From NCBI RefSeq assembly GCF_002224365.1, contig NZ_CP022437.1, positions 1,426,001-1,490,000 of the forward strand: a stretch of DNA of 64,000 nucleotides, written 5' to 3'. Shown here one piece after another: positions 15,971-58,768 of this stretch. How positions within the stretch are numbered: position 1 is the stretch's first letter; every line of letters begins with the position of its first letter. The notes beneath the pieces were generated by a model, which did no database searches, was not told the origin of the DNA, and saw nothing but the letters and a program-made list of their open reading frames with translations. The DNA comes from Virgibacillus necropolis (GTDB lineage: Bacteria > Bacillota > Bacilli > Bacillales > Amphibacillaceae). The translations under genes were made by a program, and so were the position numbers.

Positions 15971-16584
15971 TGTAATTCTCCTCTAATGTATCTCGAAATA
16001 GTCAGTACGTGGTTAAATTATAACGAATTCTAGCTGGTACGTCTATCAATTTTAGTCTTATTTTACTAGCATTTGTAATTATTTGGCGAGTTTAATTAAT
16101 AATGCTTTACGAATACATCTTCTTGAGGATTCATTACTTTAGGAAAACTAGTAATAACTGTATGCGTAAGAAATATAGTGTATAAGGATAAAATAACAGT
16201 GTAGATATCATTTATTGGGCATTTTTCATTGTTTTTGGGACTTTTAGAACAAATTACGATAGGTTATAATCAAGTTTAACGTTTCTTATAAAGTACATAT
16301 TACATTTTAAAACGAACAAAAATAGCTCCTCTAAATAAATTATGCCGAGCCACTATATATATGCGTGTAATAACTAGAACTTTCTTTTATAAAATAGGTC
16401 AAAATAGTTAGATTTATGAATAGGATAAAAGTATGGTGAATAACCATCGAAAAAAATTCAAGAGAAATGATGGGTGAAGGTTAAAACTGCTTAACCAGCA
16501 GAGTTTAGTAAGAAAGTCTTAGTTAGTACGTGACTTTTAAGAATTTTTCGTATATACTAACTTTAACTTACAAAACTAGTTGCA
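15971..16584. other. AT-rich non-coding region upstream of sinI
   Basis: No supported gene is seen in these 614 bp on either strand. A possible sigma-A promoter, TTTAGA (16243-16248) and TATAAT (16265-16270) with a 16-bp spacer, has no ORF within 480 bp downstream. A small hairpin GGTTAA/TTAACC lies at 16479-16496. The region could hold a small RNA or a long sinI leader, but nothing specific was recognised. Confidence 0.5.
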
Positions 16585-16585
16585 T

Positions 16586-16594
16586 TTTGACAAA
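16586..16594 (-). promoter_or_regulatory. Spo0A (0A) box at the sinI promoter
   Basis: The minus strand reads TTTGTCAAA, fitting the Spo0A consensus TTTGTCRAA at every position. The same bases form TTGACA (16587-16592), a candidate -35 box, with TATCAT at 16608-16613 as a poorly spaced (15 bp) -10 and TACAAT at 16626-16631 as an alternative. In B. subtilis the sinI promoter is activated by Spo0A~P, so the location fits. Confidence 0.6.
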
Positions 16595-16648
16595 ACAAGA
16601 CACCCACTATCATTTCTGCATATAGTACAATAGTAGTGTATAAATTGC

Positions 16649-16739
16649 TTCCTCAGAAAAGGGCAAACTTACTGAAAAGTATGGACGCAAAATCACAGGT
16701 CTAAAGCTAATTAGCTACGGCGGCTGGGTTACCCAGGAA
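16649..16739 (+). promoter_or_regulatory. Cyclic-di-GMP-I (GEMM) riboswitch aptamer
   Basis: The order of conserved blocks fits the GEMM-I consensus: GGGCAAAC (16661-16668), a stem capped by a GAAA tetraloop (ACTGAAAAGT), GGACGCAAAA (16683-16692), ACAGGTCTAAAG, a short hairpin AGCTAATTAGCT, and the receptor strand GGCGGCTGGGTTACC (16719-16733). The closing stem is TTCCT (16649-16653) with AGGAA (16735-16739). It ends 6 nt before the sinI Shine-Dalgarno sequence. No terminator follows, so translational control is likely. Confidence 0.85.
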
Positions 16740-16758
16740 AATAAAATGGGGGCTAACA

Positions 16759-16899
16759 ATGATAAAAATAGTCAAACAAGTAGGTCTTGATAACGAATGG
16801 GTTGAGTTGCTACAGGAAGCAAAGAGTCTAGGAATAACTATAGAGGAGGTCAGATTGTTTTTAAATGAAGTAAATAATGGTGAAAAAATCAATCAATAA
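16759..16899 (+). CDS. sinI: SinI-like anti-repressor of SinR
   Basis: A 46-residue protein, too short for most ORF callers. LDNEWVELLQEAKSLGI followed by EEVRLFL matches the SinI dimerisation helices (B. subtilis LDQEWVELMVEAK). SinI binds the C-terminal domain of SinR one-to-one and removes it from matrix-gene promoters. The C-terminal tail after the second helix is about 11 residues shorter than in B. subtilis. ATG at 16759 follows ATGGGGG at 6 nt. It lies 66 bp before sinR on the same strand, behind a c-di-GMP riboswitch and a Spo0A box. Confidence 0.85.
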   Translation: MIKIVKQVGLDNEWVELLQEAKSLGITIEEVRLFLNEVNNGEKINQ

Positions 16900-16932
16900 A
16901 ATGTGCTTAATATAGAACCACACACTTTTTTG

Positions 16933-16941
16933 TGATATAAT
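16933..16941 (+). promoter_or_regulatory. Extended -10 promoter of sinR
   Basis: TGATATAAT just downstream of sinI gives sinR its own extended -10 promoter; no good -35 is seen. Separate transcription of sinR independent of sinI matches the B. subtilis arrangement. Confidence 0.6.
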
Positions 16942-16965
16942 CTCACTGAAGGTAGGTGTGTGTCC

Positions 16966-17298
16966 TTGATTGGTGAAAAAATTAAACAACTGCGCCAAGA
17001 TAAAAATATGTCTATATCGGAACTTGCAGAAAAAGCTGGTGTAGCAAAATCATACTTAAGCTCAATTGAACGAAATCTTCAGTCGAACCCATCGATCCAG
17101 TTTATCGAGAAAATTGGTGTCGTATTAGGTGTCACTGTAAATGATATAATACGTGAAGATCAAGCAACTAGTACAGACACACAATTAGATGGTGAGTGGT
17201 TGAAAATCGTACAAGAAGCAATGGATTCTGGAGTATCAAAAGAACAGTTCAAAGAATACCTTGAGTTTAACAAATGGAGAAAAAAACAGGATAATTAA
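16966..17298 (+). CDS. sinR: SinR, HTH-type biofilm repressor
   Basis: A 110-residue repressor (B. subtilis SinR is 111). The N-terminal XRE helix-turn-helix reads ISELAEKAGVAKSYLSSIER, nearly identical to SinR, and the C-terminal SinI-interaction domain includes LDGEWLKIVQEAMDSGVSKE and QFKEYLEFNKWRK. It represses matrix operons as a tetramer and is antagonised by SinI. TTG at 16966 aligns with the SinR Met-1 (IGEKIKQ) and follows AGGTAGGTG; GTG at 16960 is the alternative. A terminator follows, so sinI-sinR is a closed unit. No tapA/tasA or eps genes lie within the window. Confidence 0.93.
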   Translation: MIGEKIKQLRQDKNMSISELAEKAGVAKSYLSSIERNLQSNPSIQFIEKIGVVLGVTVNDIIREDQATSTDTQLDGEWLKIVQEAMDSGVSKEQFKEYLEFNKWRKKQDN

Positions 17299-17309
17299 AT
17301 TTTTGTCTT

Positions 17310-17345
17310 GACCGTAGAGCTTAATTAGCATACGGTTTTTTTATT
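17310..17345 (+). terminator. Rho-independent terminator of sinR
   Basis: ACCGTA ... TACGGTTTTTTT with an inner GCTTAATTAGC palindrome. Confidence 0.85.
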
Positions 17346-17368
17346 GTAGAAAGTGGGGCTAATTTAAC

Positions 17369-18091
17369 ATGAACTATTTTTCACATATACAGAAGTTACT
17401 TCAAACAGTTGAAGTGCATGAAAGTAAGACTATGACGCAAGCTGCTGAAAAAATCGCTAATTCAATCAAACAGGATGGAATCGTTCATTTGTTTGGTTGT
17501 GGGCACTCCCATATATTAACAGAAGAAACTTTTTATCGTGCCGGTGGACTCGTTCCTGTGCATCCCATTTTCCATGAGCCATTAATGCTACACGAAGGCG
17601 CTACTCGATCCTCCACACTTGAACGAAAAAATAATTATGCGAAAAAGTTTATGGAAGATCAGGACATCCGAGTAGGCGATATAATGATTGTAGTCTCTAA
17701 TTCTGGACGAAATCCGGTTCCTGTCGACGTGGCACTGATTGCAAAAGAAAAAGGTGCAACAGTGATTGGTATCACCTCAATTACATATGCAAAAAGCCAA
17801 CCATCCCGGCATATAAACAGCAAATATCTACATGAGGTAGTGGAAGTTGTCATTGATAATCATGCTCCAACAGGTGATGCTGTATTAAGCCATCCAGAGG
17901 TATCAGTTAATTATGGGCCTGTTTCAACAGCAATTGGTGCAACAATTATTAATAATGTATTCGCTGAAGCTATCACATTATTAGCAGATCAAAAAATGGA
18001 AGCACCTGTATTCCTAAGTGGAAATTTGGAAGGCGCTGATCAACATAATAAAATGATGATGGAAAAATATAAAGATCGAATAAAATTTTAA
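17369..18091 (+). CDS. SIS-domain protein (UPF0309 family)
   Basis: A 240-residue cytosolic sugar-isomerase-fold protein. SIS marks are GIVHLFGCGHSHILTEE near the start, MIVVSNSGRNPVPVD (phosphosugar-binding Ser-rich loop) and VIGITSI. The UPF0309 group is thought to bind or isomerise phosphosugars, but the reaction is not known. AGTGGGGC precedes the ATG. It sits between sinR and the amino-sugar genes nagE, nagA and nagB, which is consistent with, but does not prove, a role in amino-sugar phosphate metabolism. The VanZ-like gene follows after 13 bp. Confidence 0.82.
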   Translation: MNYFSHIQKLLQTVEVHESKTMTQAAEKIANSIKQDGIVHLFGCGHSHILTEETFYRAGGLVPVHPIFHEPLMLHEGATRSSTLERKNNYAKKFMEDQDIRVGDIMIVVSNSGRNPVPVDVALIAKEKGATVIGITSITYAKSQPSRHINSKYLHEVVEVVIDNHAPTGDAVLSHPEVSVNYGPVSTAIGATIINNVFAEAITLLADQKMEAPVFLSGNLEGADQHNKMMMEKYKDRIKF

Positions 18092-38782: not shown

Positions 38783-38997
38783 GTTAACGAGTCGCCTTCG
38801 CCTTCGCTTTTCTTTGTCTAGCTGCGGCTCCTAGCGGTTAGCAAATATTTAGTCCTGATGAAATGTACGTAAAGTTCAACGTACTTTTCACATGCCCTAC
38901 AGGATGTAGGGTAGTTCGACGTTGCCGCAGGACGTGGCGGTCTTAGTCGAACTTCTCTTACGTTTGTACACCGCTGACCAGTCGCCTTCGTTTTTTC
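38783..38997. repeat. Dispersed repeat, CTAGCTGCGGCTCC family (copy 3) with nested hairpins
   Basis: A stray 3' end fragment (CGTTAACGAGTCGCC) precedes a full copy, CTAGCTGCGGCTCCTAGCGG ... CGCTGACCAGTCGCC. Its first 70 bp match copy 1. Two hairpins are added inside: CCCTAC/GTAGGG (38895-38911) and TAGTTCGAC/GTCGAACT (38912-38951). With the terminator this accounts for most of the 408-bp gap before secA. Confidence 0.8.
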
Positions 38998-49478: not shown

Positions 49479-49669
49479 ATTAGAAACAAGAAGTTCAAGG
49501 CGCGAAGATTTTGAGGACCGGACTTGCGCGTGTTGTGCTGACTTCTACGTTGTCCACAGGACGTGGACGGTTTTAGTAGAAGTTCCTCATGCTTTTAATA
49601 CGTGAGGACCGGAAAAACTGCGCAACGAAGAAATTCGCCGTTTATCATTTGGTGACTTTTTGAACATCC
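49457..49669. mobile_element. MITE-like repeat, TTCAAAAAGTC family (copy 3, 213 bp)
   Basis: GCGTGTTCAAAAAGTCGG at the left and GGTGACTTTTTGAACATCC at the right form inverted ends. Imperfect direct repeats flank it (CCTCCAAG left, TCTTCAAG right, 6 of 8). A palindromic hairpin of 46 bp is nested inside at 49540-49585 (GACTTCTAC ... GTAGAAGTTC). The left end overlaps the last codons and the stop of minJ. Confidence 0.88.
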
Positions 49670-58492: not shown

Positions 58493-58768
58493 GGTTGTTC
58501 AAAAAGTCACCAAATGATAAACGGCGAATTTCTTCGTTCCTTGAAAAAGAAGAACACTTTTTCTGCGTGCGAAGTAATGCTTCGGGGGTAATTCGAGTGC
58601 TCAGTTTTTCCGGTCCTCACGTATTAAAAGCATAGAGGAACTTCTACTAAAACCGTCCACGTCCTGTGGACAACGTAGAAGTCAGCACATCCTGTGCAAG
58701 TCCGGTCCTCAAAATCTTCGTGCCTTGAACTTCTTGTTTCTAATTTGCCGACTTTTTGAACACACACT
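58493..58768. mobile_element. MITE-like repeat, TTCAAAAAGTC family (copy 4, 276 bp)
   Basis: The longest copy. GTTGTTCAAAAAGTCACC and GACTTTTTGAACACACAC are inverted ends, and an 8-bp direct repeat TAATAGAG flanks it. An extra hairpin (CCTTGAAAAAGAAG to CTTCGGGG) lies near 58550-58590, and the 46-bp palindromic module lies at 58638-58683. It splits hprK from lgt, and the lgt ribosome binding site lies directly after it. Confidence 0.88.

Follow-up and report, generated by a model that had tools for sequence, protein, structure and literature searches.

A c-di-GMP-I aptamer before sinI in Virgibacillus necropolis and the strands that may control its Shine-Dalgarno sequence

SinI and SinR decide between motility and matrix in B. 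subtilis. In Virgibacillus necropolis, a c-di-GMP-I aptamer is located directly before sinI, which raises the question whether the ligand acts on the ribosome binding site, in which direction, and via which strand of the leader. The original prediction proposed a translational ON switch in which the aptamer strand GTTACCC captures the Shine-Dalgarno (SD) sequence. Here, we evaluate this proposal in the window, i.e., the whole stretch of 64,000 nucleotides of contig NZ_CP022437.1 to which all positions refer, and in orthologous leaders. The explanation that we prefer, and to which we give about an even chance of being correct, is a c-di-GMP-I riboswitch that controls sinI translation, most likely as an ON switch, by strand exchange at helix P1. 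If this holds, c-di-GMP feeds directly, through RNA, into SinI/SinR in Virgibacillus/Oceanobacillus-type bacteria.

The sinI locus and its relatives

The features of the locus are, from 5' to 3':
16570-16596, + strand: conserved upstream elements ACAAAACTAG ... TTTTGACAAAAC, before the -10 region
16623-16631, + strand: likely -10 region TAGTACAAT
16652-16736, + strand: c-di-GMP-I (GEMM-I) aptamer, RF01051, 72.2 bits (gathering score 35)
16748-16752, + strand: SD of sinI, GGGGG; SDs of the UGGGGGA type recur in relatives
16759-16899, + strand: sinI, 46 codons (46 aa), ATG at 16759, PF08671 with E=3.8e-12 and 46.2 bits
16966-17298, + strand: sinR-like gene, PF01381 (HTH_3) plus PF08671 (SinI domain), adjoining sinI

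Both identities presupposed by the original prediction, the c-di-GMP-I aptamer and sinI, are borne out by these matches. The NCBIfam SinI equivalog model yields 34 bits for the window sinI and does not reach its cut-off of 80; the assignment as SinI anti-repressor follows from a SinI domain that adjoins a sinR-like gene. In the list of open reading frames, the sinR-like frame opens with GTG at 16960. We prefer the TTG at 16966 because the resulting start, MIGEKIKQLR, fits SinR.

The aptamer is the only RF01051 match in the 4.34-Mb genome and ends 11 nt from the SD. Its pocket residues G16662, A16689 and C16732 are canonical and correspond to G20, A47 and C92 of Vc2, a correspondence taken from the accessible part of PMC11218506; they point to c-di-GMP as the probable ligand. 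c-di-GMP is plausibly produced in this organism, since its genome carries GGDEF domains: three of the matches lie in open frames, and a further one (G000:C1:3306459-3306683) is broken by two stop codons.

Among the 60 aptamer leaders aligned below, ACAAAACTAG is present in 46 and GACAAAAC in 40, and ACAAAA-type matches are concentrated at two distances before P1. TTTTGACAAAAC resembles a reversed Spo0A box. A pattern similar to the -10 region occurs in 29/60 leaders, mostly 27-33 nt before P1, and implies a likely RNA start at approximately 16638. The original prediction pointed out that no T-run follows the aptamer, and the stretch 16500-17400 contains 0 terminator-like sites. An out-of-frame ATG at 16746 was considered as the start of a conserved leader ORF and rejected, as the congener has no ATG there.

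The original prediction also extended the switch to lower SinR activity and more matrix. An effect on SinR may be expected, and one on matrix production would follow by analogy to B. subtilis. PF12389 (Peptidase_M73), a family that gives matches in B. subtilis as a search control, has no match in the whole V. necropolis genome, although SinI and SinR are present; a matrix output of SinR in this genome is thus putative.

SinR orthologues (E<=1e-25) were found in 106 of 159 family genomes. An aptamer is located upstream (model R1, E<=1e-10) in 58 of the 109 family sinR loci fetched, which represent 109 of 111 rows, the sinR matches G151:C20 and G080:C16 being left out. All 80 named loci were searched with model R1, and 60 of them were also run against Rfam. 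Out of these 80 loci, 29 carry the aptamer before sinI on the sinI/sinR strand, and they belong mostly to Virgibacillus, Oceanobacillus, Lentibacillus, Ornithinibacillus, Aquibacillus or Gracilibacillus. Merging identical leaders reduced the collection from 90 to 62. The 60 full matches among them, with the degenerate L178 and L187 below the cut-off, form the model-fitted alignment A2. Alignment A1 comprises 30 rows and is unfitted, and 34 leaders under 80% identity serve as representatives.

Covariation in these alignments gives P2 and P3 strong support. Double changes occur at 14/25 pairs of A1, all of them in P2/P3 (shuffled mean 6.8), and at 15/21 pairs outside P1 in A2; with P1 included, A2 reaches 19/25 (shuffled mean 10.9). 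P1 is less secure. RNAalifold did not predict it, and it was entered into the covariance model by hand. In the model-fitted A2, it shows double changes at 4/4 pairs and is 92% paired, compared to 0/4 pairs and 79% in the unfitted 30-row A1. Leaders such as L169 and L172, which carry CUAU/AUAG instead of UCAG/CUGA in P1, are included in A2 and absent from A1. The window itself forms P1 in a shifted register, UUCCU/AGGAA.

Strands that may compete for the SD

Four elements of the leader are relevant for the pairing of the SD:
16649-16655, + strand: P1 5' strand UUCCUCA, the proposed anti-SD strand and best SD partner by alignment column
16735-16739, + strand: P1 3' strand, AGGAA in this genus, pairing with 16649-16653
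16728-16757, + strand: helix of the original prediction, GTTACCC with GGG, bulged C, TAAC; possible, about 0.5-3% populated
16732-16750, + strand: window-specific hairpin, CCCA (16732-16735) with UGGG (16747-16750), from folding prediction

According to our preferred explanation, the SD, which reads UGGGGGA in many relatives, would pair with the P1 5' strand UUCCUCA when the ligand is absent; in the window, CCCA at the aptamer's 3' end would be a further partner. Each of these pairings would open P1 or withdraw the ligand-binding C16732. Binding of c-di-GMP would close P1, keep both strands within the aptamer and leave the SD free, and SinI would rise.

The helix of the original prediction can be formed exactly as described. 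GTTACCC occupies 16728-16734 and finds seven Watson-Crick partners in GGG (16750-16752) and TAAC (16754-16757) with the C at 16753 bulged. The claim that it covers the SD holds for three of the five SD guanines, while the other two lie outside the helix. GTTACCC does overlap conserved aptamer positions, namely three P3 base pairs, C16732 (Vc2 C92) and the next C, and the helix would thus exclude the ligand-binding residue. It is also the sole 7-pair former among the 89 heptamers of 16640-16734 when these are paired with 16735-16775 allowing at most one bulge. Across the leaders, at least 5/7 pairs form in register in 45/60, often through G-U, and 7/7 is reached in one leader besides the window, L126. 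When G-U is allowed, any register with one bulge gives 6 or 7 pairs in 40/59 leaders, as opposed to 19% for random heptamers of the aptamer, and the register of the helix is 71.3% paired versus 43-62% when slid.

Nevertheless, several results argue against this helix as the mechanism. Structure prediction assigns its seven pairs a probability of approximately 0.005-0.03 in four constructs (ends 16761, 16770, 16800 and 16830), and of 0.01-0.02 at further transcript lengths (ends from 16752 to beyond 16800). The closest relative, a single congener, carries GTTACGA opposite an unchanged SD side, GGGGGCTAAC, and retains 5/7 pairs. Among 2000 dinucleotide shuffles of 16735-16775, 3.1% also reach 7/7 with at most one bulge. 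Compensatory changes, which the original prediction proposed as a check, do not exceed expectation: across the 60 leaders, own partners pair no better than permuted ones (71.3% versus 71.5%), double changes number 10 versus 14, and 4487 of 5000 permutations give a duplex energy as good as or better than the own one. The complementarity of this region to the SD is real in general and pyrimidine-driven, and nothing specific maintains this particular helix. We consider it highly improbable that it is the main ligand-free structure of a translational ON switch, and we rejected it as the main switch on its low probability, the congener mismatch, the lack of covariation and the frequency among shuffles.

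By comparison, the P1 5' strand appears from the alignment to be the best-supported SD competitor, and a better conserved one. The mean duplex energy of 10-mers with their own SD is lowest at columns 7-10 of A2, which represent this strand (-6.0 to -6.5 kcal/mol); the region of the original prediction comes second with -4.7 kcal/mol. In 32/60 leaders, the strand outdoes every other non-overlapping 13-mer tested. The consensus UUCCUCA forms 6 or 7 of 7 in-register pairs with UGGGGGA in 39/60 leaders, with 6/7 in the window and 5/7 in the congener, and in-register pairing amounts to 81.7% as opposed to 53-65% when slid by 1-3 columns.

Conservation extends beyond P1 itself. The information content is 0.72-0.79 bits at columns 11-13, just outside P1, compared to 0.03-0.45 at columns 4-10 and 0.66 at column 3, while the U preceding the G-run of the SD reaches 0.88 bits. 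A pyrimidine triplet at columns 11-13 is present in 41/60 sinI leaders and 23/34 representatives, and is absent from 19/60, compared to 4/31 other family GEMM-I aptamers, which are called non-sinI solely since none adjoins a sinR match by coordinates. This control set was drawn from 29 of 30 family loci, L020 being omitted as it lies by sinR. Covariation of the anti-SD helix gives a mixed picture: own duplex energies were equalled or surpassed in 137/5000 permutations for all 60 leaders and in 1064/5000 for the 34 representatives, and any run of pyrimidines can pair with an SD rich in G.

An extended P1 was considered as the sole reason for the conserved CC. Column 13 is paired with 123 in 30/60 leaders (shuffled mean 23.1) and column 12 with 124 in 17/60 (13.0), as C13-G123 in 14/60 and as C12-G124 in 4/60. 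This small excess over shuffled alignments is not sufficient and explains part of the conservation at most.

The window adds a second predicted competitor. Here, the original claim that the CCC of the aptamer sequesters the SD survives in a shorter register, 16732-16735 with 16747-16750, and not in the helix first proposed; the P1 5' strand is the better conserved partner. The mean pair probability of this CCCA/UGGG hairpin depends on transcript length, with 0.92 at end 16752, 0.20-0.24 at ends 16758-16770, 0.54-0.71 at 16780-16800 and 0.12-0.15 beyond 16800. At ends 16758-16770, the SD is mostly paired with 16648-16652 (0.73-0.78). Once the transcript extends to 16815-16830, the coding region takes up most of the SD (competing stretch 16785-16791); in the 16830 construct, 16785-16788 pairs with the SD at about 0.67.

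It is conceivable that this hairpin, with P3 partly intact, is the main anti-SD element of an ON switch here. Such a reading is nested in our preferred explanation, and its probability is not exclusive of the latter. The hairpin engages the pocket residue C16732, it is well populated at the first and third of these length ranges, and its four standard pairs can be formed in 36/60 leaders. However, its probability is low at ends 16758-16770, the window alone among the 60 leaders has 4/4 Watson-Crick pairs, the register shows no covariation in these leaders, and the congener lacks the CCC. All in all, we regard it as unlikely to be the main element.

Predicted accessibility and the direction of control

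For constructs that extend 15 nt past the SD, the mean unpaired probability of the SD across the 60 leaders is 0.28 in the free ensemble versus 0.64 with aptamer and P1 enforced, part of this exposure being built in, as enforcing P1 takes the 5' strand out of the pool of partners. Accessibility gains exceed 0.2 in 43/60 leaders, and a loss of that size occurs in none. Lengthening the tail to 40 nt gives 0.34 free and 0.56 enforced, with 30 leaders rising and 5 falling.

Exchanging the 13-nt 5' flank is independent of an enforced P1. When the flank was swapped for those of other GEMM-I aptamers (12 of 31 flanks drawn per leader), free accessibility increased from 0.28 to 0.45, and when it was shuffled (10 times per leader), it was 0.43. 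Compared to the swapped flanks, the native flank gives the lower value in 44/60 leaders (Wilcoxon p=2e-6) and in 23/34 representatives (p=0.003), p values which are optimistic as the leaders are related.

For the window alone, the swap raises SD accessibility from 0.04 to 0.14, a small effect in line with two competitors. The window is nearly flat in the 60-leader enforcement test, going from 0.06 to 0.07, as its P1 departs from the consensus register. With the core aptamer closed together with its own P1 (16649-16653/16735-16739), the SD is 0.67-0.96 unpaired. This state lies approximately 10 kcal/mol above the free ensemble, calculated without ligand or tertiary terms; therefore, transcription kinetics or ligand energy would have to carry the switch.

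Regarding the direction, folding thus predicts what the original prediction had assumed, an SD that is paired in the free leader and exposed once aptamer and P1 are closed; the ON sign has the standing of such a prediction. The opposite sign, translational OFF, would result if the ligand-bound aptamer hindered ribosome loading on an SD 9-11 nt away. The P1-to-SD distance is indeed this tight, 9-11 nt, in 44/60 leaders. Moreover, the best-known translational GEMM-I switch, Vc2 (V. cholerae tfoY), is OFF and masks a distant RBS in the bound state, according to the accessible parts of PMC7371385 and PMC9262584. By these sources, our leader would share with Vc2 the c-di-GMP-I aptamer, translational control and P1 as the switching element; in contrast to Vc2, closure of P1 is predicted to free a nearby SD. 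Since closing aptamer and P1 is predicted to expose rather than hide the SD in most leaders, we consider translational OFF rather unlikely. Should translational ON be correct, the leader would give the c-di-GMP-I class a compact platform for translational ON control, in contrast to the OFF switch Vc2.

The leader might also act mainly on mRNA stability or processing, with incidental pairing of the SD. The title of a cited paper reports c-di-GMP-dependent RNA stability for Vc2, and such an effect would fit this view. The conserved spacing between aptamer and SD points to the SD instead, and we judge a main role in stability or processing to be improbable.

Pocket divergence, lost aptamers and known systems

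In the 60 sinI leaders, the pocket triad (A2 columns 30, 58, 117) reads GAC in 36, including the window, GAU in 14 (e.g., L037, L048, L050) and AAC in 10 (e.g., L034, L035, L039). The position of G20 is thus occupied by A in 10/60 leaders and that of C92 by U in 14/60. The accessible part of PMC9262584 assigns the G20 position a role in selecting between cyclic dinucleotides, and a crystal structure of a G20A GEMM-I RNA with cGAMP is cited in that of PMC6274999. The AAC triad equals this G20A change linked to cGAMP. A broader and more speculative proposal, which we hold to be unlikely as a whole, is that translational ON switching is conserved among the orthologous sinI leaders while their pocket has diverged. 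Via a P1 strand with a second role as anti-SD, one and the same SinI/SinR decision would then respond to different cyclic dinucleotides, or to c-di-GMP with different tuning, in sister genera. Test material exists in nature in the form of leaders with a G20A or C92U pocket, with lost aptamers or in another gene order (B. methanolicus type).

Of 16 listed sinI leaders that lack a model match, several (e.g., L043, L057, L081) keep UGGGGG. The idea that UGGGGG is retained for riboswitch pairing is weakened by this persistence; as such SDs occur where no aptamer was found, UGGGGG alone cannot count as evidence of pairing. None of the 16 has a UUCC-type motif 85-107 nt before the SD, where aptamer leaders carry it. 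Nearer to the SD, UUCC is found at 69-70 nt in L043 and L064, and UCCUC at approximately 50 nt in L063; therefore, the loss of the strand is not clean. L040, L043, L044, L057, L070, L081 and similar leaders, which have no aptamer match, carry GGGGG or GGAGG SDs, some with apparent aptamer remnants. Many of the sinI leaders without an aptamer match keep ACAAAA promoter-like elements.

Another gene order is found in six more loci (L084, L087, L096, L097, L103, L106) from Bacillus methanolicus, Robertmurraya and others, where the aptamer precedes a SinI-like ORF, judged by eye, that is convergent to sinR. These loci have their own c-di-GMP-I aptamer and an AGGGGG or GGGGGG SD, and both the 5' flank and the spacer are different. 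L103 (B. methanolicus DE0196) and L106 differ from the window in the convergent orientation, the absence of UUCC and the spacer. As B. methanolicus-type leaders lack the UUCC strand, the platform would be lineage-specific.

The association of c-di-GMP riboswitches with sinI is already known: the accessible passages of PMC4342826 (2015) list a putative c-di-GMP riboswitch directly before sinI in B. methanolicus MGA3, a position shared with the window aptamer, and these passages give no switching mechanism. In the open-access literature on sinI/SinR and Oceanobacillus, with subscription papers mostly outside this scope, we found no account of the mechanism of a sinI c-di-GMP riboswitch. Among the characterized systems, Bc2/cbpA of the B. 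cereus group is likewise a c-di-GMP-I ON switch, which acts on transcription according to the part of PMC7423583 at hand, unlike the translational control predicted for the window. Bc1/mcpE of the same group is described in the accessible part of PMC11218506 as a dual c-di-GMP-I switch with a long platform and two terminators, whereas 16500-17400 of the window has no terminator-like site. The pilM cGAMP switch shares the GEMM-I class and the ON direction predicted here, and differs in being transcriptional and in its ligand, as far as covered in PMC9262584.

Two further observations concern other RNA elements. Locus L067 contains a second c-di-GMP-I aptamer (2035-2114, 56 bits) downstream of sinR. 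In the window, three Bacillaceae-1 RNAs (RF01690) are located at 38896-38962 (- strand), 49525-49592 (- strand) and 58631-58698 (+ strand).
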